From a virus: a DNA stretch of 29,135 nt. Position numbers and translations under genes: made by a program. Location of the stretch: the IMG/VR virus record IMGVR_UViG_3300010885_038082, positions 1 to 29,135 of that record. The stretch is one strand, 5' to 3'. The notes under the pieces are model-generated. The model saw only the letters and a list, made by a program, of their open reading frames with translations. It was not told the DNA's origin and did not search any database. Each line of letters opens with the position of its first letter. Position 1 is the first letter of the stretch. Positions 4,319 through 25,834 of this stretch are shown in pieces.

Positions 4319-4639
4319 TTAAACTCTAAAACTTTCACCGCAACCGCAACGGTCTCTCTCGTTGGGATTGATGAACTCAAATCCTTCTTGTAAACCTTTA
4401 CGAATATAGTCTACAGTAAGGCCCTGCATGTACACACAACTCTTTGGATCAACAAAAATACGGCAACCTGCACATTCAAATTGTTGATCCTCTGTTTGCG
4501 GTGTGTCTACGTATTCTAACACATAAGCAAGTCCTGAGCAACCGGTGGTCCTAACTCCAAGACGGATACCAAGTCCCGAACCACGACGGCTCAACATATT
4601 TTGTATCTTCTTGGCGGCTTGCTCAGTGACTTGTATCAT
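4319..4639 (-). CDS. iscA: A-type iron-sulfur carrier (IscA/ErpA family)
   Basis: 106 residues with the three invariant cysteines of A-type carriers: Cys34 in TGCSGLAY and Cys98/Cys100 in the C-terminal CGCGESF. These proteins bind iron or a [2Fe-2S]/[4Fe-4S] cluster and pass it to apo-enzymes in the cytoplasm. Length and motif spacing match IscA of the isc operon. Its ATG overlaps the isocitrate lyase stop by one base (TAATG), so it is co-translated with it. Two additional Cys (56, 59) are not typical of the family. IscA versus ErpA cannot be separated with confidence by eye. Confidence 0.9.
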   Translation of the reverse strand: MIQVTEQAAKKIQNMLSRRGSGLGIRLGVRTTGCSGLAYVLEYVDTPQTEDQQFECAGCRIFVDPKSCVYMQGLTVDYIRKGLQEGFEFINPNERDRCGCGESFRV

Positions 4640-5844
4640 TAGAATTGGACCGCTTCGGTTGAGTGAGTATTGGCCACAGTTGATGTAGCACCAACTGCTG
4701 TGCTAATGGCATCAAAATAACTAACGCCAACTTCACGTTGATGCTTAACTGTTGTGAAGCCTCGTTCTTGAGCTTCAAACTCACGCTGTTGCATTTCTGA
4801 ATAACCGGCCATGCCACGTTGGCAATATGCTTCTGCCAATTCAAATGTAGCAAGGTTAACTGAGTGGAAACCTGCTAGCGTAATAAACTGGAACTTGTAG
4901 CCAAGTTCACCAAGCTCACGCTGGAATGTTTCGCATTCTTCTACCGATAAAAATTTACGCCAGTTGAAACTGGGTGAACAGTTATAAGCAAGCATCTGAC
5001 CCGGGAATTGAGCATGTATAGCATCAGCAAATTTCTTGGCCTGTTTGATATCTGGCGTCGAAGTTTCAAACCACAACAAGTCTGCATAAGGTGCAAATGC
5101 TAGGCCACGAGCAATACAAGCGTCAATACCGTTTTTAAACTTGTAAAAGCCCTCTTCGGTTCGTTCGTCAATGATAAAATCTTTGTCTAGTGGGTCGTGA
5201 TTTGACGTAATCAATGTAGCGGCTTCTGCGTCAGTGCGAGCCATAATAACTGTGTCGACACCTGCTACATCAGCGGCAAGTCTTGCGGCATTTAATGTAC
5301 GAATCATTTGACTTGTTGGTACAAGAACCTTGCCGCCCAAGTGACCACATTTCTTTTCAGACGCTAATTGATCTTCAAAGTGAACACCAGCGGCGCCTGC
5401 TTCAATCATAGCGGCCATTAGTTCGTATGCGTTTAACGCACCACCAAAGCCAGCTTCAGCATCAGCTACAATAGGAAGGAAGTAATCAGTTGTTACATTA
5501 CCTTCTAATGTTTCAATTTGATCAGCACGACGAAACGCATTGTTAATACCTTTGACCACACGCGGTACCGAGTCAACTGGATATAGACTTTGATCTGGAT
5601 ATGTTTGATTTGCTGTATTGTTTGCGCCAGCCACTTGCCAACCTGACAAGTAAATTGCTTTCAAACCAGCTTTGGCATGTTGTACTGCCATCTGACCGTT
5701 GTAAGCACCTAATGTGTTTACATATGGTTCGTTTGCCAATAGTTCACGCAACTTTTGTGCGCCACGACGAGCTAATGTATATTCGATCTGTACTGAGCCT
5801 TGTAGCTTTTGTACATCTGCCTGAGTGTAGTTTCTTTTTTTCAT
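4639..5844 (-). CDS. aceA: Isocitrate lyase
   Basis: 401 residues with the isocitrate lyase active-site motif KKCGH at 164-168 (catalytic Cys166) and the metal-binding ADAEAGFGG at 127-135. The conserved [14 protein letters not shown] and YNCSPSFNW segments are also present. The enzyme splits isocitrate into glyoxylate and succinate, the first step of the glyoxylate shunt. It is about 30 residues shorter than cellular proteobacterial forms, which typically have a longer N-terminus and an extra loop before ADAEAG; no catalytic motif is missing. It sits between iscU and iscA, with three bases to iscU and a one-base overlap with iscA. No malate synthase is seen in the window. Confidence 0.95.
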
Positions 5845-5847
5845 AGT

Positions 5848-6222
5848 TTAATGTTTTTTGCGATAGTCTTCTACCGCGGCTTTGATGGCGTCTTCGGCCA
5901 AGATGGAGCAGTGAATTTTGACGGGTGGAAGGGCCAATTCTTCTGCTATATCTGAATTCTTAATTTGTGTTGCGGCGTCAAGTGTCATGCCTTTGACCAT
6001 TTCAGTGATCAAACTGCTACTTGCAATGGCTGAGCCGCAACCATATGTTTTAAACTTTGCATCAGTGATGATACCATTTTCTACCTTGATTTGTAGTTTC
6101 ATTACATCACCACATGCAGGAGCACCTACCATGCCTGTGCCAACATCTTCATCATCTTTTGAAAAACTGCCTACATTTCTAGGGTTTTCATAATGATCAA
6201 CTACCTGTTTACTATATGCCAT
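5848..6222 (-). CDS. iscU: Iron-sulfur cluster scaffold IscU
   Basis: 124 residues, near the usual 128. The scaffold cysteines are all present: Cys37 in PACGD (with Asp39), Cys62 in YGCGSAIASSS and Cys105 in KIHCSILAEDAI. The LPPVK motif (98-102), recognised by the HscA chaperone in cellular IscU, is conserved. IscU assembles [2Fe-2S] clusters from sulfur delivered by IscS; no IscS, HscA or HscB gene is in the window, so host partners would be needed. It is the first gene of a four-gene operon and has AAGGAG before its ATG and a T4-late-type box 22 bases upstream. Confidence 0.96.
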   Translation of the reverse strand: MAYSKQVVDHYENPRNVGSFSKDDEDVGTGMVGAPACGDVMKLQIKVENGIITDAKFKTYGCGSAIASSSLITEMVKGMTLDAATQIKNSDIAEELALPPVKIHCSILAEDAIKAAVEDYRKKH

Positions 6223-11165: not shown

Positions 11166-11393
11166 TTAGTCTTTGTCGTTAGTGATGATGGCGACTGTAC
11201 CATCCCATACCAGTCGTCCATCACATGCCACATTCCATTTGGTTTCGCCATACTCATTTGTTGTTTCTGTGTACAGCGGACTGAATATTTTAACATCCGA
11301 CGCCAAGTGTTCTACCCCATCTTCAAACACTCGCCATACCAGGTCGGTGTTGCCACCATGCTTGGTATTGAATCTGACATGGAACTTGGACAT
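11166..11393 (-). CDS. Unknown 75-residue protein
   Basis: Begins MSKFHVRFNTKHGGNTDLVW; predicted as mainly beta strands, soluble, without cysteine clusters. Its start overlaps the stop of the kinase fusion by one base (11393) and its stop is two bases from tRNA-Arg(TCG). Probably an operon partner of the fusion. No family recognised. Confidence 0.65.
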   Translation of the reverse strand: MSKFHVRFNTKHGGNTDLVWRVFEDGVEHLASDVKIFSPLYTETTNEYGETKWNVACDGRLVWDGTVAIITNDKD

Positions 11394-12247
11394 TATTTTA
11401 ATCCCATTTCCTTGCGAATCTTGGTTGCTGAAATATCAGTCACTGATGAGTCAAATGACTCTTGTTCAATCTTGTAACCCACATCGCGGCCATATGTGAT
11501 GTTTACAATGTTGGGAACAACTTGTATTTCATACTGTCCCTGAAACAACGGATCCAAATCGCGTCGAATAAATGACTTGACTTGATTGACTTCAAATGGA
11601 TTGCTGTTGTTCCAACCTTGACAGTCGCGGATTTGAATTACAACCTGTCCTGTCTTGGCAATGGCACGTTCAAACAAGGCACGGTGACCAGCATGCCATG
11701 GCTGCCAACGACCCAACATCTGTACAGTTTCTTTTTGCCAATCAAACCGTGGTCTACGACGGTCATGAAGAATATGGTCCCCAACAAATTCTGCCCACTT
11801 TTCTGCGTTTTGTTCTGTGATACGGAAGTCATACACTTCAGGAGGAACAAAGGCTTTGTTGGTATCATCAAAGCGCCCTGAATCAATTGTGTCAATCCAG
11901 ATGGTCCAGTCTGCTTTAAAGTTATTACGCATCTCAACCAATGGAGCAACAAAGTCACAGATAACATAGTCGCCTGTACATTTAAATGCAAATTCCGCCA
12001 TGCGTAAGCTTTGACGAATACGACCTTCTCGACTAAAGTCCCAGTCATTGAAACGCTTGCGTATCTCATCAGCATTGAACCATTCAACTGCGGATTTATA
12101 ATCTGCTGGTGGAAATTCCATGCCGGCAGCTCGCCATAATGGCATTGTAGCAAGACTTGAATTGTCTTCAAGGTACTTCTTTAATCTTTCGGAAAAGTAT
12201 GTTTTTCCCGAGCCTGGTAAGCCCATAACAAGAATCTTTGTGGCCAT
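11393..12247 (-). CDS. APS-kinase-like domain fused to an HxGH nucleotidyltransferase
   Basis: 284 residues. The N-terminal kinase (about 1-165) has a Walker A GLPGSGKT at 9-16, NADEIRKRF at 58-66 and FSREGR at 71-76, the pattern of adenylylsulfate (APS) kinase, which makes PAPS from APS and ATP. The C-terminal domain (about 175-284) has GRWQPWHAGH (179-188) and ISATKIR near the end, the two motifs of cytidylyl/NMN-adenylyltransferase-type enzymes. An ATP-sulfurylase-like role would complete sulfate activation, but the motif is closer to NMNAT/cytidylyltransferases, so the second reaction is open. AAAGGAG precedes the ATG and ATTAAATA lies further upstream. Next to two sulfotransferase-like genes, PAPS supply is a reasonable inference. 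Confidence 0.75.
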   Translation of the reverse strand: MATKILVMGLPGSGKTYFSERLKKYLEDNSSLATMPLWRAAGMEFPPADYKSAVEWFNADEIRKRFNDWDFSREGRIRQSLRMAEFAFKCTGDYVICDFVAPLVEMRNNFKADWTIWIDTIDSGRFDDTNKAFVPPEVYDFRITEQNAEKWAEFVGDHILHDRRRPRFDWQKETVQMLGRWQPWHAGHRALFERAIAKTGQVVIQIRDCQGWNNSNPFEVNQVKSFIRRDLDPLFQGQYEIQVVPNIVNITYGRDVGYKIEQESFDSSVTDISATKIRKEMGLK

Positions 12248-16312: not shown

Positions 16313-16334
16313 AGTGTTGTAAAAATACAACACT
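16313..16334 (-). repeat. Perfect hairpin at the end of the 13-gene run
   Basis: AGTGTTGTA/TACAACACT, nine perfect pairs with a T-rich four-base loop, beginning at the stop codon of the last gene. No T tract follows, so it may protect the mRNA 3' end or act as a weak terminator. Confidence 0.5.
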
Positions 16335-17017
16335 CAAGATCTACACTTGTTAAAGTGTTCTTGTAACCAACTGTAATTGTTGATTAAATTAAGTCTCGAC
16401 ATGTCGTCTTGACATTCGTTGACATAGGCTACAGCGTCCTGGTAACCGCGGTAACACCAAGCGGCATTATTTTTCCCATCGTCAAGATCTTTACACGCAA
16501 TCCAACTGTTGACAAACTGTTCTCTGTGATGCTTGCCCGGGCGATTTTTAAAGATAACGCTGGTTAATTTAACACAATGACGAAACGCCGCTCGCCAAGC
16601 ATCAAATGGTGTTTCATTGTAAGCAGTGATTGAAAAGGTGTTGTTTACTATTACCTTGCTGTCAGTGGCATTTAAAGAAAATTCACCATGTCGCATGTCT
16701 TTAGCAACAATTTTATCAACTGTCCAAAGTTTAACAGCACCCAGTGTAGAAGTTGTATTCTGTATTGGATCCTGCGCTGTAAACAATATCAGGTCATGCG
16801 TGATCTGTTGGTTATAAACCAATGGTTTTAATAACCAATTATCTCCGTCAACTGTCCAGAAATTCTTAGAAGTTGATAACGATTCGCATGCCAAGTGTAC
16901 ACGATCTATGCCGTTGATTCCGTGTATGCGTTTTGCATCTGGATGTAGCTCAAGCAATCTTTTCCAGTTTTTCTCAGCATTGCTTTCTTGATAGCTTATG
17001 AAAAATATATCAGACAT
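16334..17017 (-). CDS. Phage glycosyltransferase-like protein (GT-A type, DGD)
   Basis: 227 residues from ATG 17017. The pattern DIFFISYQESNAEKNW near the start, then NFWTVDGDNWLL (DGD at the place of a metal-binding DxD), resembles proteins of T4-like marine phages annotated as glycosyltransferase-like. The frame extends to 17065, but the chosen ATG makes a short (8-base) overlap with the previous gene and matches the family start. It is the last gene of the 13-gene run. Sugar donor and acceptor unknown. Confidence 0.6.
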   Translation of the reverse strand: MSDIFFISYQESNAEKNWKRLLELHPDAKRIHGINGIDRVHLACESLSTSKNFWTVDGDNWLLKPLVYNQQITHDLILFTAQDPIQNTTSTLGAVKLWTVDKIVAKDMRHGEFSLNATDSKVIVNNTFSITAYNETPFDAWRAAFRHCVKLTSVIFKNRPGKHHREQFVNSWIACKDLDDGKNNAAWCYRGYQDAVAYVNECQDDMSRLNLINNYSWLQEHFNKCRS

Positions 17018-17570
17018 TTCTTGGTATTTTATCCAGTGCCTTGAGAATCTCTTGATCAGTGTCACTGTAACCTCTGTTTGTATATTTAAAGTATCTTTCT
17101 CGAATTAAACTGTGTTGTCCTGCAAATCCTTCAAGCTGTCCAGTGACTCTAAGCGTTTTATGAATTATATCCTTTAAGGTATTATTATTCATAATGGTGT
17201 ATTTTCCATCTGTGGCAATGGCGCACACACTATAATCAACCCAGCGTATTCTATCTGCGGCTGTGGCATCATGTACCACAGCTTGTACCTGGCAATTGTT
17301 AACGGTCCAGGTGATTTTGGTTTGACCTCTTGAATTTAACTGTTGAAATTTATTGCTTCTTGTTGTACGTTGAATATCAACTGAAATTGGAGATAACAGT
17401 TTGTCAAGTTCAGCAATGCTGGCTTCTGAGCGGCAAACAATATCAATGTCGTTGGCCTGCCATGTGCAACGGCCCAATTGGGACTCAATTTGATATGTTA
17501 GATAACTGCCTGTGATGTAAGGACCTGTAACCAAGTCAAAATTTACCACAGAAGCAAGATAGTTGATCAT
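17010..17570 (-). CDS. Nucleotidyltransferase-fold protein, paralogue 1
   Basis: 186 residues. TGPYITGSYLTY near position 15-26 followed by NDIDIVC gives the G-S...D-x-D signature of the polymerase-beta nucleotidyltransferase fold. The C-terminal part (RERYFKYTNRGYSD) matches the second copy at 23253, and so does the spacing. Such minimal proteins transfer nucleotides to small molecules, proteins or RNA; target unknown. Two bases separate it from the 59-residue gene upstream and it overlaps the GT-like gene by eight. Confidence 0.65.
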   Translation of the reverse strand: MINYLASVVNFDLVTGPYITGSYLTYQIESQLGRCTWQANDIDIVCRSEASIAELDKLLSPISVDIQRTTRSNKFQQLNSRGQTKITWTVNNCQVQAVVHDATAADRIRWVDYSVCAIATDGKYTIMNNNTLKDIIHKTLRVTGQLEGFAGQHSLIRERYFKYTNRGYSDTDQEILKALDKIPRNV

Positions 17571-17572
17571 GT

Positions 17573-17752
17573 TTACCAGTCGCCATTATCAACCACAAGT
17601 CTAAGTGATAAAAATGCAAACTGTGCTGTATATTCACTTCTGTTAGGGGCAGGGCAGACCCACGGATGTTCATTCTTAAACCAATGAAACTGCCAGTGTA
17701 ATGGGTTTAACACCAGTGTAATCCAAATACCGCTGTAGCGTAGCCAATCCAT
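17573..17752 (-). CDS. Unknown 59-residue Trp-rich protein
   Basis: Starts MDWLRYSGIWITLVLNPLHW and holds seven tryptophans in 59 residues; the aromatic N-terminus could associate with membrane. Its ATG overlaps the phosphatase stop (TAATG) and its stop is two bases before the nucleotidyltransferase ATG, so it fits exactly in the operon. No family recognised. Confidence 0.6.
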   Translation of the reverse strand: MDWLRYSGIWITLVLNPLHWQFHWFKNEHPWVCPAPNRSEYTAQFAFLSLRLVVDNGDW

Positions 17753-18288
17753 TAGTTGTTGCCTTTTTTTAATCTATGTTCACGTCTTGCTTGGGCAAGT
17801 GTGTCCCATCTTTCATTTGAATCAAACCACTCTTTATCAAGTGGTGTTCCATTGATGGTGGGCAATTCATTGCTGTCATAGGTCCAGCCTAAGGCCTTCA
17901 TCATGCGATGCTTGACCAACAAGTTTGGAGCACGAAATGCTTCTGTGTCGTCAAATCCCATCATAATGCCTACTTCACACACTGCGCCACTACGGCAAAC
18001 ACCAGCATGGCAATGTACAATAACATTCATACGATTAGCTAATGCATGTTTCAACAATTCAGCCAACTCTGCGGCCTGTTCGTGACTGCATCGCATGGCT
18101 TCGTCGAGTGCAAAGTCCTTCTCTTCAATGTCTAGGAATTGAAACTGATGAGCTTCCTTAAAGTTGTACTTGGGAGTAGGGAAGTCGCCGGGCGGATCAA
18201 CAATTTGAATCAGCATGGCGTTTTCACCAGGATTGATGTGATAACCTTTTTTAATATCACTTAGTGAAACATTTTGAATCCACGGCAT
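17752..18288 (-). CDS. Dual-specificity/tyrosine phosphatase-like protein
   Basis: 178 residues with the Cys-based phosphatase P-loop HCHAGVCRSG (Cys93, Arg99), within the HCx5R signature. The general-acid loop is less clear. Members hydrolyse phosphotyrosine, phosphoserine/threonine or non-protein phosphates, in the cytoplasm. AAAGGAAAAG before the ATG. In this operon it could act on a phosphorylated sugar or intermediate as well as on host proteins. Confidence 0.8.
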   Translation of the reverse strand: MPWIQNVSLSDIKKGYHINPGENAMLIQIVDPPGDFPTPKYNFKEAHQFQFLDIEEKDFALDEAMRCSHEQAAELAELLKHALANRMNVIVHCHAGVCRSGAVCEVGIMMGFDDTEAFRAPNLLVKHRMMKALGWTYDSNELPTINGTPLDKEWFDSNERWDTLAQARREHRLKKGNN

Positions 18289-18300
18289 ATCTTTTCCTTT

Positions 18301-18930
18301 TTATTTTAAGATATTTAAAATCTTATTTTTATAAATCTGGTGTTGTTTGGGACCCGGATGTTGAAGATCTGTGCCAACATCAACAAATTCGTCACCATCT
18401 ACTCCTAGAACAACACCAGGCGCATTGCCAATTAATTTTAAGAAAAGATCTGTTTGTTCTTTTAACAGTCTTCTCATTACCCATATTATACAATAATCAA
18501 CTGAACCTATTTTTTCTAAAAAATTAACAACCTGGCAAACATAATCGCGTGCCTTAAATGCTAAATTTTCATCTAATAACCTTCTGTGACTAATGATATT
18601 TTCAAATTCAGGATTCAATTTATTGTAGTAATGCCAGGTTACATTTTGTTTAGTACCATTGGCAAAATAATAAACAAATCTATTGATACCTGTCAGTCCC
18701 CATATCAGTTTATCACCTGGTCGTATATCAGCCCTGAGTATTTGATCCACTGCCCATTCAATTGACGTTCCGGGTTCTGTCAGATACACAGGAGTCATAT
18801 CTAGTTCATGTGATACTAACTGTCCGTATTTTTCGTCAGCACCGACTCCTGTACCATGAGAAATGCTACAGCCCACAATCCATAGAACAGGATCATCATT
18901 GGGTCTTTTGCTTGTCAGCTTCATACTCAA
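18301..18930 (-). CDS. SGNH/GDSL-like hydrolase, copy 1
   Basis: 209 residues. Block I is VGCSISHGTG (nucleophile Ser22) and block V is a D-x-x-H-P pair (DLQHPGPKQHQ) near the C-terminus, the Ser-Asp-His arrangement of SGNH esterases. Such enzymes remove or transfer acyl groups on glycans and lipids. No signal peptide, so it would act in the cytoplasm. The start (18930 or 18924) overlaps the sulfotransferase gene by about 30 bases. It shares both motifs with the gene at 23845. Confidence 0.65.
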   Translation of the reverse strand: MSMKLTSKRPNDDPVLWIVGCSISHGTGVGADEKYGQLVSHELDMTPVYLTEPGTSIEWAVDQILRADIRPGDKLIWGLTGINRFVYYFANGTKQNVTWHYYNKLNPEFENIISHRRLLDENLAFKARDYVCQVVNFLEKIGSVDYCIIWVMRRLLKEQTDLFLKLIGNAPGVVLGVDGDEFVDVGTDLQHPGPKQHQIYKNKILNILK

Positions 18931-19639
18931 CCGTCAATTTCTCTACAAGATCTAACATTGTCTGACTCAATCGAACACGGTAATCCCTGTTTTGCTTTCT
19001 AGGAAAGCCATCACGTTCAAAGAAATCTATGTCTTCATAAGCCAGTATTTTGGCATTATGACTGTTGACATCATTGATGATACGGTCAAGCGTCTTAATC
19101 CTATCAACTAAATTGTACAACACGCCTGGATCTATGTCAAGCACTTGATCTGTAAATTCACCCTCAATCAACTGTCCAAATTGTTTTGTTGAATATGCAA
19201 TTACGTAACTGCCAAGTTGAGCACGTTTGTCTTTTCGATAAAGATAATAATTCTTTTCTGCCATATTCATCAAATATTGCCTAATTTCAGGATCTATGGG
19301 GTCAACATGATTGTGCATGATTGTTTTTCTATTAGAAGAATATTGCTTTAACAAACTAAATCTATGCTGTTCTTCTTCGTTGGGTGACCTGGTTCTTGGT
19401 TCATACATCTTTTTAAAATCAATTGAACCATTATCAATAAAGTATTCTAAATAATATGCTCCTGGCTCATAATCATTTAAGGCAAACATCAATCCATCAC
19501 TGTTACGCATATAGTAATTTTTCATGTGATGCTTATTAAACAGCTCGTTAATATACACAGAATCTGAGTGAATTGATTTAAGATAATAGCTGTACCATAC
19601 ACTGCCAGTTCTAGGTGTTGACCAAACGTTTATAATCAT
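18896..19639 (-). CDS. Sulfotransferase-like protein
   Basis: 247 residues. MIINVWSTPRTGSVWYSYYL at the start contains the phosphosulfate-binding loop (TPRTGSxW after a beta strand), and YYLYRKDKRAQLGSYVIAY at about 130-150 matches the 3'-phosphate-binding strand and helix. It is the clearest stand-alone sulfotransferase in the window. Acceptor unknown. Located between a dioxygenase-like gene (8-base gap) and the SGNH gene (overlap). Confidence 0.75.
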   Translation of the reverse strand: MIINVWSTPRTGSVWYSYYLKSIHSDSVYINELFNKHHMKNYYMRNSDGLMFALNDYEPGAYYLEYFIDNGSIDFKKMYEPRTRSPNEEEQHRFSLLKQYSSNRKTIMHNHVDPIDPEIRQYLMNMAEKNYYLYRKDKRAQLGSYVIAYSTKQFGQLIEGEFTDQVLDIDPGVLYNLVDRIKTLDRIINDVNSHNAKILAYEDIDFFERDGFPRKQNRDYRVRLSQTMLDLVEKLTVEYEADKQKTQ

Positions 19640-19647
19640 ATCAAATC

Positions 19648-20298
19648 TTAATAGGTAGCAGTGCCTGGCTTTTCTGCGTATTGTTCAAGGTTGTCTATTA
19701 TTTGATAGTCACGTCTATCCATTAAAATCTTCACTTCAGGACCATATTCATCGTGGCCTTCCCAGGGGCTACCCATGGCCAATGTTAACTTTACTGTGTC
19801 ACTTTCATTGTCCATGCCATGTACCCAACTGCCATCCATTAAAAATGCACCGTCAACTTCTGGTACATGTACATCACCTGCCTTGGTCTTGAAAAATAAT
19901 GAGTCTGTGCGGCCTCTTAGTACAATACGGAATTTGTGCTTTTTGGTGCCTACTTCGTGTACCTTACTGTCAATGTGTATTGCATTCTTAGCACCAGGTT
20001 GTGTAATAAGAATCATTAATCTACTACGCATGCCTGTCCAAGGGAATACTACATTTTCAAAGTAGTCTTTAATGGTTGGCGGAGTATGATCTGCCCAAAC
20101 AAATTCACCCTGGTGACGATTTGAAATGCTTTGGGCACCCAATTGACCTGTTTTTGTCACTAAAGGAATCATGTGAATTTCACGGTATGCGTCCCAGAAA
20201 ACAGCGTCAGTTCCCAGCAATGGTTCAATTTCTGCTATTGCCTTGGCCTTGTCAATGGGAGGCAAATCAACAGTTGCAAATAATAAATTTTTACTCAT
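19648..20298 (-). CDS. Fe(II)/2OG-dioxygenase-like (Asp/Asn beta-hydroxylase-type) protein B
   Basis: 216 residues from ATG 20298, which follows the previous stop by one base. It has H-x-D (His108, Asp110 in AIHIDS) and distal His160 in SWVHGMDN with a following basic residue, the 2-His-1-carboxylate layout of double-stranded beta-helix dioxygenases. These hydroxylate peptides or small molecules with O2 and 2-oxoglutarate. The longer frame to 20334 is rejected because it overlaps the upstream gene. Substrate unknown. Confidence 0.7.
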   Translation of the reverse strand: MSKNLLFATVDLPPIDKAKAIAEIEPLLGTDAVFWDAYREIHMIPLVTKTGQLGAQSISNRHQGEFVWADHTPPTIKDYFENVVFPWTGMRSRLMILITQPGAKNAIHIDSKVHEVGTKKHKFRIVLRGRTDSLFFKTKAGDVHVPEVDGAFLMDGSWVHGMDNESDTVKLTLAMGSPWEGHDEYGPEVKILMDRRDYQIIDNLEQYAEKPGTATY

Positions 20299-20299
20299 A

Positions 20300-20938
20300 T
20301 TAAATTCCAAATAATTTCTTTTTTGCGTCGGCAAATGTCATGTCACGATATTCATTTTTAGCCCTCATACCAACAATGGTTCTTGCATTGGCACTGGCAG
20401 TATTGTCCCATTCATGATATATTGTGGTATTAAATAATATAGCATGTTCTTGAGAAAAATGTCTGGCAGCCAGGCATTTGGGTTTTTTAATTGATTCGTC
20501 AAGTATGTAGCTTACAGTGTCATGGTGAACAGCATCTTCACCGTCATACCATCTGGTAATACACTGATCATCTTTAATAAAAACAGGATAATTAAGTCTG
20601 AAATTCACTGGTTTATTGATTTCAGCATTGATGTCCAGGTGTATAGGGCTTTTGACTCCGGGGTAAGTGGTCAAGAAGGCCGCAGATCTATCCAGATGTA
20701 AAAATTCAGAGCATGGATTGTTGTCTATTAGAAGAGTTAAATCCTTGTCATTTTTAACATAAAATTCTTCAGTTTGATAATTGGGATACACTTGTTGTAT
20801 TGCAGTAACGCCTTTGTTGTTTGATACAACAAAATTTGATTGGTTAGCAGTGTCTTGTAACAATTTTATATAATCATCTAGGCCAGGGTAGGAGAAGGTT
20901 ATATAGTACGGACTGCAATCTTTAATAATTTTAAACAT
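20300..20938 (-). CDS. Fe(II)/2OG-dioxygenase-like protein A
   Basis: 212 residues with His100-x-Asp102 (SPIHLDINAE), distal His175 (IYHEWDN) and Arg186 as possible 2-oxoglutarate anchor. The spacing fits a cupin-type hydroxylase. One base separates it from the GNAT-like gene upstream. It differs from the two neighbouring dioxygenase-like proteins outside the metal site, so the three may act on different positions or substrates. Confidence 0.7.
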   Translation of the reverse strand: MFKIIKDCSPYYITFSYPGLDDYIKLLQDTANQSNFVVSNNKGVTAIQQVYPNYQTEEFYVKNDKDLTLLIDNNPCSEFLHLDRSAAFLTTYPGVKSPIHLDINAEINKPVNFRLNYPVFIKDDQCITRWYDGEDAVHHDTVSYILDESIKKPKCLAARHFSQEHAILFNTTIYHEWDNTASANARTIVGMRAKNEYRDMTFADAKKKLFGI

Positions 20939-20939
20939 T

Positions 20940-21485
20940 TTATTTTAATTCCACCGTTAACAATTGCTGAAGCACACCATTGAACATGACAGGGCCGTCA
21001 CTGGGAACAAATACAGTGTCTGGAAATGCTTTTCTTAGATGATATTTTCTGCTTATTTCAAATAATCTCTGATTATAGTCATTGAATGACAGTATGTATT
21101 GTTTACATCCTTGTTCATTTGCTCGACGAAATTGTTCAGTCATAGTATGAGTATGAATATAGGCCTTCATACAGCCCAGCCCCTTTACAATCTTTTCAGC
21201 ATTTGAAAACCATCTAAATCCACCCTGATATATTTTTTTATTGTCAATGTGTCTTACTATTCCGCCACTGCCGCCCCATATTTTGCCATCGACATAGACC
21301 AGGGCATAAGTGTCTAACTTGTCATCACGTAACAAACTCAATAAACTCCACGGATGCATATACCCATAGTTTTCTGGCAAATTGTCTACATCAGCATCAA
21401 AGTACGCTGTTAAACCTGCAGTCAGCTTTTGTGTAAATTCAGCCTTATTCTCAGCAGACAGTACAAGCACATCAATCACATCCAT
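20940..21485 (-). CDS. GNAT-like acyltransferase (tentative)
   Basis: 181 residues. A strand pair YALVYVDGKIWGGSGGIVRH followed by a helix with Gly (EKIVKGLGCMKAYIHTH) is compatible with the GNAT core, and phage homologues of this type are often called acetyltransferases. The acetyl-CoA loop is weak. It lies three bases after the Asp-hydroxylase-type gene and one before the next. Confidence 0.45.
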   Translation of the reverse strand: MDVIDVLVLSAENKAEFTQKLTAGLTAYFDADVDNLPENYGYMHPWSLLSLLRDDKLDTYALVYVDGKIWGGSGGIVRHIDNKKIYQGGFRWFSNAEKIVKGLGCMKAYIHTHTMTEQFRRANEQGCKQYILSFNDYNQRLFEISRKYHLRKAFPDTVFVPSDGPVMFNGVLQQLLTVELK

Positions 21486-21488
21486 GTT

Positions 21489-22040
21489 TCAACTTTCTAC
21501 AACACCAACCAAGTGTAATCTGTCCATTTCAGAACAGTTCATAAATGTGTGATTTTGTCGTGTGTCAGCCCAATACACATGCCCTGCTGACATGTGAGTC
21601 AAATTGGCTGTATCATTATTCTTAAAAACAAAATAACACTCAGGATTGGTAACTAATGGAATATGTATTCTTGGCGTAGAATCCTTGTGTATGCTGTAAC
21701 AACTCATTCGATTGACCCACATGAATCTTGTTCTTGTCATTTTATAGTCTGTGATTAGCTTTTCAAAAACAGTGTCTTTAAAGAATGGATTTATTTTATT
21801 GTAAGACAGTTCCATGCCTTGATTTCTACCCACAGCACTGGTCCATTCATGTTTTGTCCAAGGTTTGCCTGTTTCTGGATTCAATGGCACATCCAGGTCT
21901 CCGGGATTCAAGTCGTCCTTGTATTGCAAGCCAGCTTGTTTGCCCTTGTGTCCACTGCTGGTCCAAACAATGTTGGGTTCTAACCTAAGGAACTCATTTA
22001 AGATATCAGTGATATCAATTTCGTTTAAAATTTTTATCAT
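21489..22040 (-). CDS. Aspartyl/asparaginyl beta-hydroxylase-family protein
   Basis: 183 residues with the family's clearest motifs: HKDSTPRIHIPLVTNP (His118, Asp120, Arg124), then RQNHTFMN (His164) and DRLHLVG (Arg174). These enzymes hydroxylate the beta carbon of Asp/Asn or related substrates using Fe(II) and 2-oxoglutarate. The start overlaps the SDR gene end by 26 bases. Of the three dioxygenase-like genes this is the best supported. Confidence 0.85.
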   Translation of the reverse strand: MIKILNEIDITDILNEFLRLEPNIVWTSSGHKGKQAGLQYKDDLNPGDLDVPLNPETGKPWTKHEWTSAVGRNQGMELSYNKINPFFKDTVFEKLITDYKMTRTRFMWVNRMSCYSIHKDSTPRIHIPLVTNPECYFVFKNNDTANLTHMSAGHVYWADTRQNHTFMNCSEMDRLHLVGVVES

Positions 22041-22545
22041 AATTTATATTATCCCATTCAATTATGCTAACTCTGGTATTATTTATCCAAAAATCAATGC
22101 CATTTAGTACCTCTGAATACATGACAGGTTCTTTGTCAGGGTAGTTTTCTAGGTAACCCATCTTTAACAATAACATTGGCAATTTATTGTTTTTCTTAAC
22201 TCGCTTGTGTGTTTGTTCAATAATATATTTGTTCATATAATATGGATTAGTTTGTCTACTTGGTTCGCTGGCATCTGCGGCCATTGAGCCAGACGTTATG
22301 ACAATGGTATCTTCTGACAATCTTTCAATCATAGTGCTTTGTGTTGCATGACAATAAACATTGTTAAAAAAATAATCAGGCCGTTGGCTTTTGACAAATT
22401 CAATGACCTTTTCAATATCATGTTCAATGTCAAACCCGTTTGACCTGGACAGTCCAGTTACTGAGTAATCTTCTCGGTTGTTAAAATGATTGTAAATTTG
22501 TAAACCCAGGCCTTTTGTATGGCCAGTTACTATAACTTTTTTCAT
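22015..22545 (-). CDS. Short-chain dehydrogenase/reductase-like protein
   Basis: 176 residues, shorter than the usual 250. TGHTKGLG at 7-14 is the dinucleotide loop (TGxxxGxG), SGSM is at the catalytic Ser position and YYMNK gives the YxxxK pair, so the catalytic set is present while the C-terminal substrate region is reduced. It likely oxidises or reduces a sugar or alcohol intermediate with NAD(P). One base separates it from the methyltransferase. Confidence 0.8.
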   Translation of the reverse strand: MKKVIVTGHTKGLGLQIYNHFNNREDYSVTGLSRSNGFDIEHDIEKVIEFVKSQRPDYFFNNVYCHATQSTMIERLSEDTIVITSGSMAADASEPSRQTNPYYMNKYIIEQTHKRVKKNNKLPMLLLKMGYLENYPDKEPVMYSEVLNGIDFWINNTRVSIIEWDNINYDKNFKRN

Positions 22546-22546
22546 A

Positions 22547-23263
22547 TTAGTTCTTTAGACAAAATAAGTCTTGGTATTGATATATGGGAATACCCAGATA
22601 TACAGCTGGTTTGAGTTCTTCTTTGACCCAATTGATATCATAAAATGTGTTGAACGATGTGTTATTTTCCGACACAAAGTTTGCGGTGTCTGTGACAACA
22701 GTGGATGTGTTTATCCAATATGCCATGTTCTTGTAATTGATGTTATTAAAATCCAGTGGCACTACATTTTCAAAGTTGTTAGATATCCAGGTATAAAAAG
22801 GCTGAAAAACGTCCGACCTCCAAATTGTGAATAAAATAGCGCCATTTGGATTTAATAATTTTTTTAATTCGTTTAATTCATCTTTGGCCTGTTCAATTGT
22901 ATTATGGGTAAACACACTGTAGCATATGATAATATCAAACTTTTCAGAAACTGCGTCAGATACCTTGATAGTTTTATTGCCTGTTGGATTGTACGCCTGG
23001 TGCCATTTGTCATAATGCATAAAACGATATCCAGGATGTGCAAGACTGGCTGTTTCTATGGCCATTGGAATAATATCAATACCCAGGTACTTTTCAGCTG
23101 TAATGTGTTCAGCCGCTGATTTTAAAAAGTTGCCTTGGTTACAACCGTAGTCAAGTATTGAAACATTTTTCCAGTCAATGTTTAATTCTTCGTGATTAAA
23201 TGTACGAAAAAGATCTTTGTTATCATTTTGAAGATAGGTTGTGAAAATTTGTTCAGGCTTCAT
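22547..23263 (-). CDS. Class I SAM-dependent methyltransferase
   Basis: 238 residues with motif I ILDYGCNQGN, an acidic motif II end (YLGIDI) and a post-I/IV region KFDIIICYSVFTH typical of Rossmann methyltransferases. The acceptor is not evident; such proteins in glycan clusters often methylate sugars. It overlaps the nucleotidyltransferase gene by 11 bases. Confidence 0.85.
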   Translation of the reverse strand: MKPEQIFTTYLQNDNKDLFRTFNHEELNIDWKNVSILDYGCNQGNFLKSAAEHITAEKYLGIDIIPMAIETASLAHPGYRFMHYDKWHQAYNPTGNKTIKVSDAVSEKFDIIICYSVFTHNTIEQAKDELNELKKLLNPNGAILFTIWRSDVFQPFYTWISNNFENVVPLDFNNINYKNMAYWINTSTVVTDTANFVSENNTSFNTFYDINWVKEELKPAVYLGIPIYQYQDLFCLKN

Positions 23264-23789
23264 ATATTTCAGTGAGTTTATTCCAAGTTATATTACCAAC
23301 GTCCACATATCCTCTGTTTATGTATTTTTTATAACGTCCCATGATGCTTTCTGCTGGCCAGGCATAAATGTTATCATTGAGTCTTAGTGTGCGAGTTTTA
23401 ATATCATCTAGTGTGTTTTTTGCAGTGATAAAATTTATGCCATCGCTGGCAATTGCGGTCACTGTATAATCCACAATGTTCAGGCGTTCAGTTACTGATA
23501 CAGGATGTACAAAGGCCTGATATTTAAAATCATTTATTGTCCAGTACGTTCCGCTGTGCCCTAACCAATTGGTTTCTTTTGTTATTGTGGCTAGTGGCTC
23601 GAGCGTGTGCTTTACTGTCTGAAACTGGTCTTCGCTGGTACAGCAGATGTCTAAATCATCTGGCAGCCAGGTTGGTGTGTGATTGTGTTCAGTTTCCAGT
23701 AACCATGTCATGAAACTGCCTGTGAGAAATGGGCCAGTTTTGGTGTTTAATACTATTAGATTTTTAATGTAATCTAGATGTTGGTGCAT
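23253..23789 (-). CDS. Nucleotidyltransferase-fold protein, paralogue 2
   Basis: 178 residues from ATG 23789. TGPFLTGSFMTW followed by DDLDICC repeats the G-S...D-x-D signature of the copy at 17010; MGRYKKYINRGYVD matches its C-terminus. I chose 23789 over the ATG at 23846 because it aligns with the paralogue's start and lies five bases after GATAAATA, avoiding overlap with the divergent gene. It opens the 13-gene run. Target unknown. Confidence 0.65.
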   Translation of the reverse strand: MHQHLDYIKNLIVLNTKTGPFLTGSFMTWLLETEHNHTPTWLPDDLDICCTSEDQFQTVKHTLEPLATITKETNWLGHSGTYWTINDFKYQAFVHPVSVTERLNIVDYTVTAIASDGINFITAKNTLDDIKTRTLRLNDNIYAWPAESIMGRYKKYINRGYVDVGNITWNKLTEIYEA

Positions 23790-23802: not shown

Positions 23803-23831
23803 GGCGCATTTCTGGCTATGCAACCAAGTGC

Positions 23832-23839
23832 TATAAATA
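23832..23839 (+). promoter_or_regulatory. T4-late-type TATAAATA five bases before the plus-strand SGNH gene
   Basis: Exact TATAAATA on the plus strand followed by GATTC and ATG 23845. No Shine-Dalgarno, so a leaderless transcript is expected. Confidence 0.6.
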
Positions 23840-23844
23840 GATTC

Positions 23845-24648
23845 ATGTTAGATCATAGATTCTTTAGAGAAAGCCTGGCCAATAAAACTTTGCAATGGTT
23901 TCAATCTGACAATAAAGATAGATATAAATCTGAGAATAAATTTGGATTAAATCTATATCAACCAGACTCATTTAATTATAAATTTAATTCACACGGATTT
24001 CGTTGTGATGAGTTTGACTTGCCAAGTGAATTGCCTATTGTTTTTTTAGGTTGCAGTGTAACAGAGGGGGAAGGGTTACCGGTTGATAAAACTTGGGCGT
24101 ATCACACTGTTGAGAGAATAAGAAAAACAACCGGTAAACATATTCCCTTTTGGAATTTGTCTACAGCTGGTTGCGGTCTTGATTTTAACGCAGGTATTCT
24201 TGCTAATTACATTGATCAGCTTAAACCAATATATATTTTTTATCTTCGTCCAAGTTGGTGGCGTAGAGCTGTGTTTACTCAAAAAAGAGAAATATTAAAC
24301 TGGGTGCCTAATTTTAGCGAACAGCACTCTTGGAATATGCCAAGACACTTTAGTGAAACATTTGTACATGAACATTATGCATTACAGCAAGCAGATCGAA
24401 GTCTAACCATTATAGATTTGTTGGCAGAAAAATACAAAACCAAGGTCTTCCACCATGCATGGGATAGACATCCAGCAACTGAAGAAACAATACAAACAAG
24501 TATTTCCAGACTTAAAAATTTTCAACAATTAAAAGCGGCATGGACTAAAAATGTCGATCTGGCCAGGGATTCTGCACACCCTGGGCCAGCTACACAACAA
24601 ATGGTTGCTGATCAAATATGGGAACTTGATATCAAACAATTGTTTTAA
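23845..24648 (+). CDS. SGNH/GDSL-like hydrolase, copy 2
   Basis: 267 residues from ATG 23845. Block I is FLGCSVTEGEG (Ser71), with a conserved AGCGLDFNAG turn in the middle and DSAHPGPATQQ at the C-terminus supplying Asp/His. The same paired motifs occur in the gene at 18301. The upstream in-frame ATG at 23818 is less likely because the late box lies between. Divergent from the 13-gene run and ends one base before the CCA of the convergent tRNA-Asn. An acyl-esterase role on glycans is the family norm; substrate unknown. Confidence 0.7.
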   Translation: MLDHRFFRESLANKTLQWFQSDNKDRYKSENKFGLNLYQPDSFNYKFNSHGFRCDEFDLPSELPIVFLGCSVTEGEGLPVDKTWAYHTVERIRKTTGKHIPFWNLSTAGCGLDFNAGILANYIDQLKPIYIFYLRPSWWRRAVFTQKREILNWVPNFSEQHSWNMPRHFSETFVHEHYALQQADRSLTIIDLLAEKYKTKVFHHAWDRHPATEETIQTSISRLKNFQQLKAAWTKNVDLARDSAHPGPATQQMVADQIWELDIKQLF

Positions 24649-24736: not shown

Positions 24737-24764
24737 ATTATAACAACATTGTTGGAGTTGTTAA
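24737..24764 (-). promoter_or_regulatory. Sigma-70-type promoter TTAACA-16-TATAAT for tRNA-Asn
   Basis: Minus strand: TTAACA 24764-24759, 16-base spacer containing an AACAAC/GTTGTT repeat, TATAAT 24742-24737. The -35 overlaps the stop of the fusion gene. Confidence 0.55.
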
Positions 24765-25834
24765 CCTAAGAAGTAAAACGGGTCTCTTTCAAACTCTTCG
24801 GATATTTTGACCAGTTCTTTGTAATTTTCAATCCTGTCTTTATAAGATGGATTCTTCATTGGTATTACCAAATTGGTCAATGGGGATTTTAATTTGAATC
24901 CCATTATAGGTGGCAATAAGTTTATGTCTGCAGAAAAGTCTTTGTATCCAATAAACAACATGTTGGGATGTTCTGCTACAATTGCACTGCGATTAACTCG
25001 ATTGTAAAATTTTAAAACGTGCCTGTAGTAGTCTTTAAATTTGTTTGGATCTATTGAAATTTTTGGCTTGGATTTTTCAACAAACGGAACATAATTGTTG
25101 TTTGAGTACACAGCCCTGATGTGTGCCTGACTATTTGTTCTCATGATGGCCAAACTGAAGGTTGTTTCAACCATGTCCCTGATGCTGATGATACAAGCTG
25201 AATTGGCATCCAATAATTTTAAATTTTCAATGTCATGTGTATGAACAATATCAAATGGACTTAGTTCTTGTATAGGGAACGGTTGTCCATGCATATCGCC
25301 ATAAATTTTTGTAGTCTTTCCAAGTCTCTTGTATATATTTTGAATTATTTTAAATGTAACAGTACTGCCTGTTCTTCTTGGTCCGTGTACCACCCACCTG
25401 TTGATATCGGTTATATATCGTTCGTTTAAGGTTTCTTCTTCCTTAAAGGTATTGTAATCTGATTCAAGTTGAAATGCTATTTTATCAATATCATTGGTAC
25501 CATTGTCGGTGAGTGTGGCCATGCACTCGGTTTCCATTGGCTCACTGAACCATTGTGCTGTTTTCTCTGATTTAAAATAAATTGACCATAATGCATCTAA
25601 ACTAGCACGAGCATTAATTGTAGGAGCCTCTACATCAACAATAATGATGTCACTACAGGTAAAACTTGCATGTTGGTTAAGCTTTATTGTTTGCTCTTTA
25701 TACTTTGTACCTAAATCGTCTTCGCCAAGATAATCCGTGCGAATTCCTTTTTGTATCAATTTTTCTTGTAAAAGTTTGGCAAAACTAGTTTTGTTAGCTG
25801 ACGCATGCCCAATAAGTAAAATTCTTCTTGTCAT
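24761..25834 (-). CDS. Kinase-like domain fused to a sulfotransferase
   Basis: 357 residues. The N-terminal third has a P-loop-like GHASANKT (9-16, Asn14 at the usual Gly) after a beta strand, then SDIIIVDVEAPTINAR, which parallels the APS-kinase-like gene at 11393. The FSREGR-type motif is absent, so this kinase is probably divergent or inactive. The C-terminal part begins VVHGPRRTGSTVTF (PSB loop at 152-158) and has CIISIRDMVETTFSLA as 3'-phosphate site, a sulfotransferase. A PAPS-making or PAPS-binding domain joined to the transferase is suggested. A late-like GCTAAATA lies five bases before the ATG; no Shine-Dalgarno. Confidence 0.7.
   Translation of the reverse strand: MTRRILLIGHASANKTSFAKLLQEKLIQKGIRTDYLGEDDLGTKYKEQTIKLNQHASFTCSDIIIVDVEAPTINARASLDALWSIYFKSEKTAQWFSEPMETECMATLTDNGTNDIDKIAFQLESDYNTFKEEETLNERYITDINRWVVHGPRRTGSTVTFKIIQNIYKRLGKTTKIYGDMHGQPFPIQELSPFDIVHTHDIENLKLLDANSACIISIRDMVETTFSLAIMRTNSQAHIRAVYSNNNYVPFVEKSKPKISIDPNKFKDYYRHVLKFYNRVNRSAIVAEHPNMLFIGYKDFSADINLLPPIMGFKLKSPLTNLVIPMKNPSYKDRIENYKELVKISEEFERDPFYFLG

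Follow-up and report, generated by a model that had tools for sequence, protein, structure and literature searches.

What a long run of enzyme genes on one strand of a phage genome might be for was the question raised by the IMG/VR virus record IMGVR_UViG_3300010885_038082, of which we analysed a stretch of 29,135 bases (hereafter the window) that also encodes a baseplate-type protein, ClpP, Fe-S assembly genes, isocitrate lyase and 26 tRNAs. An initial annotation of this DNA had described a run of thirteen minus-strand genes and proposed that they form one decoration or biosynthetic pathway. The run itself was recovered as thirteen open reading frames (ORFs) between 16334 and 23789/23846, all on the minus strand and named gA to gM here in order of transcription, and the description of a coherent tailoring run was supported. 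Our preferred reading, which we put at a probability of roughly 0.42, is that, in a large aquatic tailed phage, the conserved part of the run serves as a mobile tailoring cassette which works on an amino-acid-bearing substrate, most likely a sugar of the host surface polysaccharide.

We compared the window to five relatives among IMG/VR contigs, four of them found in a scan with 2OG-2 (gG) and the fifth (L010) in a scan with AspH (gD); the window and these close relatives are fragments. In all five (5/5, making six contigs with the window) the genes gA to gG, encoding a nucleotidyltransferase (NTase)-like protein, a methyltransferase, an SDR, AspH, a GNAT and the 2-oxoglutarate (2OG) dioxygenase-type proteins 2OG-1 and 2OG-2, lie on one strand in identical order and with near-identical overlaps, including an overlap of 35 nt between 2OG-1 and 2OG-2 in all five compared. 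Proteins of the relatives are 52-91% identical to those of the window, and the ratio of non-synonymous to synonymous change (pN/pS) ranges from 0.08 to 0.41, with synonymous sites near saturation. The flanks differ: a B12-radical-SAM gene lies upstream in L004, a NifU-AhpC-CMD run flanks the block in L001, L002, L003 and L010, and the window has a divergent gene for a second SGNH-type hydrolase (23818..24648, plus strand; GCS and DxxH blocks), a family which recurs beside 2OG-2 in other phages. As the flanks differ while the order of the seven genes stays fixed, the behaviour of the block is that of a cassette, and judged from sequence the seven-gene arrangement exceeds chance.

Conservation in other phages, which had been named as a check on the proposal, thus supported linkage of gA-gG in five other contigs, but it did not extend to all thirteen genes as one unit. 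In one relative, L004, the block continues with sulfotransferase-like, SGNH and dual-specificity phosphatase (DSP) genes; the part which stood is gA-gG, extended by gH-gI in that contig, whereas gJ and gK-gM fell away. The DSP gene gJ (17752..18288; Pfam DSPc 2.2e-6; HCx5R) is of a type which elsewhere sits with metallophosphoesterase and AAA_33 (polynucleotide-kinase-like) kinase genes, and it is common in these phages and probably a separate module. The remaining genes gK (17573..17752, a 59-residue orphan), gL (17010..17570, NTase-like protein 2) and gM (16334..17017) lie outside the conserved block and this three-gene part is specific to the window; no homologue of gK was present in the loci compared, and the block of the relatives lacks the second NTase copy, gL. 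A single thirteen-gene pathway was rejected because gJ recurs with metallophosphoesterase and kinase genes apart from the block and because gK-gM lack conservation. A role for gK as precursor of a ribosomally synthesised and post-translationally modified peptide was likewise dropped, as it has no homologues in those loci and is outside the conserved block.

The stand-alone nature of gJ, the lack of conservation of gK-gM and the variable flanks would all suit a different explanation, in which there is no single pathway and independent accessory genes have gathered in a hot spot and are co-transcribed. We consider this very unlikely, because in six contigs seven genes keep their order and their overlaps, and because clustering of AspH with 2OG-2 reaches beyond that block family. 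Among 60 non-redundant loci collected from 2OG-2, 11 unrelated ones contained both genes, and in 9 of these AspH lay within three genes of 2OG-2 (3.5 expected, p ~0.0008, an optimistic value since the phages are related), and SGNH2 did so in 4/4 unrelated loci (1.4 expected). Genes for fatty-acid-desaturase-like, B12-radical-SAM, DSP and metallophosphoesterase proteins were common near 2OG-2 in these loci and were not closer to it than chance.

AspH (gD, 21489..22040) matches PF05118 at 4.6e-5, above the cut-off, and a profile of 31 family sequences searched against the PDB matched Cpz10 at 3.7e-24 and L-proline cis-4-hydroxylase, its second-best match, at 4.7e-7. Residues H118, D120, H126, H164, R174 and H176 are invariant in the 31 sequences; H118, D120, H164 and R174 are in register with H115, D117, H160 and R170 of Cpz10, and the H123/H172 pair of Cpz10 also maps to invariant AspH residues. 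Cpz10 belongs to caprazamycin biosynthesis (PDB 7V4F/7V4M) and beta-hydroxylates an aminobutanoyl group, and its triad, 2OG-binding Arg and His pair have been described (PMC9814697). All of these recur in AspH, which also matches Cpz10 at profile level; the His pair lies in the second shell. The phage protein, which is of similar size, lies in another gene context with no nucleoside-antibiotic genes recognised nearby. On these profile and residue matches, the identity of AspH as an Asp/Arg-hydroxylase-type Fe(II)/2OG dioxygenase is secure.

For 2OG-2 (gG, 19648..20298) the AlphaFold model (predicted local distance difference test, pLDDT, 87) is a double-stranded beta-helix whose best structural matches are Cpz10 (Z 14.1, 2.9 A over 155 residues) and L-proline cis-4-hydroxylase (Z 13.2), the latter a larger protein which acts on free proline and has ~12-14% sequence identity to 2OG-2. 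Together with H120, D122, H172 and K182 (HxD...H and a basic 2OG ligand), which are invariant in 9 sequences, the model supports an Fe(II)/2OG dioxygenase. The third protein, 2OG-1 (gF, 20300..20938), had no match in Pfam, PHROGs, the PDB or profile-profile comparison; its H100, D102, H175 and R186 (HxD...H...R) are invariant in 29/29 homologues, down to ~27% identity, which supports a dioxygenase-like protein of the same Fe(II)/2OG type. Profile-profile comparison among the three families gave no significant score; the alignment of 2OG-2 with AspH nonetheless sets the catalytic residues in register. The presence of three hydroxylase-type proteins, as proposed in the initial annotation, is therefore upheld by 2OG/Fe(II) residues which are invariant within each family.

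The other members of the block were also largely as first described, with the methyltransferase, SDR and GNAT calls supported by Pfam, by motifs with a PDB profile and by predicted fold, respectively. The SAM-dependent methyltransferase gB (22547..23263; order kept in 5 relatives) matches Methyltransf_12 at 5.7e-13. The short SDR-type NAD(P) oxidoreductase gC (22015..22545) has a PDB profile match to SDRs at 5e-7, an invariant TGxxxGxG and invariant active-site Ser and Lys, with the Tyr missing in two distant homologues. Searches of Pfam, PHROGs and PDB profiles found nothing for gE (20940..21485) and gG, and for both the structure predictions, another check which had been suggested, agreed with the folds called. 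The gE model (pLDDT 86) matches the GNAT fold in the PDB (Foldseek 1.2e-7; VIA Z 12.2 over 146 residues), and of motif A, (Q/R)xxGx(G/A), GLG is found in 7/8 sequences and the leading Q/R in some only; the model supports a GNAT-fold acyltransferase.

These folds also bear on a second explanation, namely that the oxygenases, GNAT and methyltransferase modify proteins of the virion or of host translation or the host surface, as AspH and PHD-type hydroxylases do elsewhere. Human AspH and HIF prolyl hydroxylases are among the further structural matches of the 2OG-2 model (Z 10-12), and the best Foldseek matches of the GNAT model are NatD N-terminal acetyltransferases. However, the AspH profile matches small-substrate enzymes and not human AspH, and protein modification leaves no obvious role for the SDR and NTase-like genes; we regard it as distinctly unlikely.

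The calls for the remaining enzymes of the run stood in part. The NTase-like proteins gA (23253..23789; in 5/5 relatives) and gL are paralogues with 35% identity which keep the GS...DxD-type residues, but profiles lent no support: gA had no match in Pfam, PHROGs or PDB profiles, gL none in Pfam or PHROGs, and neither matched PF01743 or PF01909 (PolyA_pol/CCA, NTP_transf_2). Similarly, gH (18896..19639) has the motif-like residues of a sulfotransferase (a P-loop-like STPRTGSVW and RKDKRAQ...S) and a counterpart with 81% identity in the corresponding position of L004, but Pfam, PHROGs and PDB profiles gave no match, and sulfation is suggested by motif. The SGNH-type hydrolase/esterase gI (18301..18924; same place in L004) has a GCS block (GxS block I) and DxxH (block V) invariant across 9 proteins, and a profile of gI with SGNH2-type proteins gave a weak PDB match to a lysophospholipase L1-like esterase (0.001). 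The product of gM belongs to a GT-A-like 'FISYDEPNAEEN' phage family with an invariant DGD and had no Pfam, PHROG or convincing PDB match, so that motifs suggest the glycosyltransferase (GT)-like identity of gM as they do the NTase-like identities of gA and gL. Searches of the window with PF09037 and PF13472 gave no result, the PF09037 control being likewise without a match. Elsewhere in the window, a 357-aa protein (24761-25834, minus strand) has a weak N-terminal match to adenosine 5'-phosphosulfate kinase-like proteins (0.08) and a second half which is sulfotransferase-like by eye, with no search behind that; a link to gH through 3'-phosphoadenosine 5'-phosphosulfate is possible.

With respect to the substrate, scanning genomes for AspH gave 80 bacterial relatives, and in 5 of their loci (Oceanospirillaceae, Pseudomonadales, Denitrobaculum, Kiloniellaceae) the next gene encodes a threonine-aldolase-type lyase, an enzyme class working on beta-hydroxy amino acids. 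Because of these lyase neighbours and the kinship with Cpz10 and proline hydroxylase, the substrate class of AspH may by analogy be an amino-acid moiety. Such a moiety could also be part of a small, diffusible amino-acid derivative, hydroxylated, methylated, N-acylated and perhaps sulfated, which would act as a toxin, signal or siderophore-like compound while infection proceeds. The closest solved relative of AspH serves nucleoside-antibiotic biosynthesis, the GNAT model is also similar to FeeM, an N-acyl amino acid synthase, and the block itself is without glycan-building genes. Against this, no ligase, non-ribosomal peptide synthetase, ATP-grasp or exporter was found among the annotated genes of the window and AspH is attached to glycan clusters in four contigs, so that we consider a small molecule unlikely, though not far-fetched.

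A connection of the AspH family to glycan-building clusters in other phages was supported by those four contigs. AspH was found in ~50 further IMG/VR contigs, some >200 kb, and in L020, L022, L030 and L057 its gene comes last in, or after, sugar-nucleotide/GT clusters (epimerases, DegT, FkbM, GT17/GT34). In L057 these comprise a dTDP-sugar isomerase, DegT aminotransferase, epimerases, FkbM methyltransferase, GT17 and other glycosyltransferases, followed by an SDR and AspH. This region (L057:374-10477) is a full phage sugar cluster which includes a transketolase-like thiamine pyrophosphate enzyme split into two genes, suggesting a branched-chain sugar.

As a tailoring cassette, the core gA-gG (extended by gH-gI) would act in sequence on a substrate carrying an alpha-amino-acid group. 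AspH, 2OG-1 and 2OG-2 would hydroxylate this substrate, the SDR would oxidise or reduce a hydroxyl or keto group, the methyltransferase would methylate it and the GNAT would acylate an amine, and in some phages the sulfotransferase-like and SGNH enzymes would add or trim further groups. The carrier would most likely be an amino-acid-decorated sugar of the host surface polysaccharide, or its nucleotide-linked precursor, and the surface change during infection may mean that competing phages no longer adsorb. We infer the amino-acid substrate class, glycan carrier, step order and purpose. It should be noted that several observations weigh against this interpretation. The block in the window has no nucleotide-sugar enzyme or profile-supported glycosyltransferase, and only the non-conserved gM at motif level. 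The presence of sugar epimerase genes in 10 of the 14 large contigs carrying AspH or 2OG-2 speaks for the glycan reading, but epimerases are common in large phages, so that this count lacks a measured background. The AspH relatives of SAR11 have ALAD, RpiB and SHMT as neighbours, which is probably a housekeeping context, and likeness of fold is not enough to tell the substrate.

Base hypermodification is known among phages, and the enzymes might instead act on DNA or tRNA bases, adding amino-acid-like groups, with the NTase-like proteins and the large tRNA set as part of the system. The NTase-like genes and the density of 26 tRNAs in 29 kb favour this, whereas the AspH profile matches amino-acid hydroxylases rather than AlkB/TET. 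TET/JBP was also not found in the 14 large AspH/2OG-2 contigs, a weak point as the control search was also without a match. We consider this the least likely of the explanations.

Spacing within the run is tight, with junctions of -35 to +12 nt across the first ten genes (gA-gJ). The last junction (gL/gM) is -56 with the listed GTG start of gM or -8 with the ATG at 17017, which is suggested by homologue L038. All close homologues of gA start at the methionine at 23789, not 23846, so that the start first annotated was correct, and homologue comparison suggests starts at 20298 for gG, whose ORF opens upstream at 20334 with TTG, and at 18924 for gI. A late-type promoter box proposed before the first gene was not supported: TATAAATA is absent from the minus strand upstream of gA, and across the window it was counted 4 times (expected 2.5), which is near chance (≥4 in 22/100 shuffles). 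The nearest candidate, GATAAATA at 23802-23795, ends 5 nt ahead of the gA ATG and is too close to it to be a T4-type -10 element for gA. Two perfect TTGACA-17-TATAAT matches (16305-16277 and 16015-15987, minus strand) lie just downstream of the thirteen-gene run and probably start the next transcription units.

Genes for iron and central metabolism also occur in the window and its relatives. In L001, L002, L003 and L010 the NifU, AhpC and CMD-family (AhpD-like) genes share the strand of the cassette and run toward it, an arrangement that would be consistent with supplying Fe(II) enzymes with iron and shielding them from peroxide. In the window, genes for an A-type Fe-S protein, isocitrate lyase and a NifU-type scaffold adjoin (4319-6222, minus strand); the lyase (4639-5844, minus strand) has an intact KKCGH motif and a Pfam match of 1e-104, and aceA-type genes have been noted earlier in marine viromes (PMC4053976). 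A fusion of a kinase with a cytidylyltransferase-like domain (11393-12247, minus strand; PHROG 10255, 5e-45) is also found near AspH in L015, L021 and L048, and L015, a 113 kb phage contig, has about seven fatty-acid-desaturase-like genes in a row beside AspH (L015:10901-19663).

Clusters of this kind have been predicted before in cyanophages, and the enzyme set differs. Iyer et al. 2021 (PMC7824862) predicted sugar-/amino-acid-modification clusters of 8-12 genes with several 2OG/Fe(II) hydroxylases and methyltransferases, for example in S-SSM6a, and took their role to be either the decoration of capsular polysaccharide or the synthesis of a secondary metabolite. The likeness lies in several 2OG hydroxylases in one cluster, of three families in the block described here. 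The cyanophage clusters have a carbamoyltransferase, HemK-like methylase and halogenase core, where our block instead has NTase-like, SDR, GNAT, sulfotransferase-like and SGNH genes; among the thirteen genes there was no Pfam match for carbamoyltransferase or halogenase, and HAD phosphatase was not found either. The collection searched includes S-SSM6a, in which tblastn found no homologue of any block protein. Matches in this annotated phage collection were AspH in Pelagibacter phage Mosig and mycobacteriophage LilMcDreamy (two records) and DSP in Synechococcus phage BUCT-ZZ01, with no others.

Many enzyme genes of large aquatic phages have no known product, and the present analysis replaces a vague "auxiliary gene" label with an assayable enzyme set: a seven-gene block with three Fe(II)/2OG families, one of which has a solved small-molecule relative. 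It is a bold and rather doubtful suggestion that the genes constitute a complete phage route to an amino-acid conjugate which bears hydroxyl, methyl, acyl and sulfate groups and arises in infected cells only, with at least one oxygenase family, 2OG-1, absent from every library searched; if true, this substance would be previously unknown. The link between AspH and sugar clusters in four phage contigs is a lead on how phages may remodel the surfaces of their hosts.

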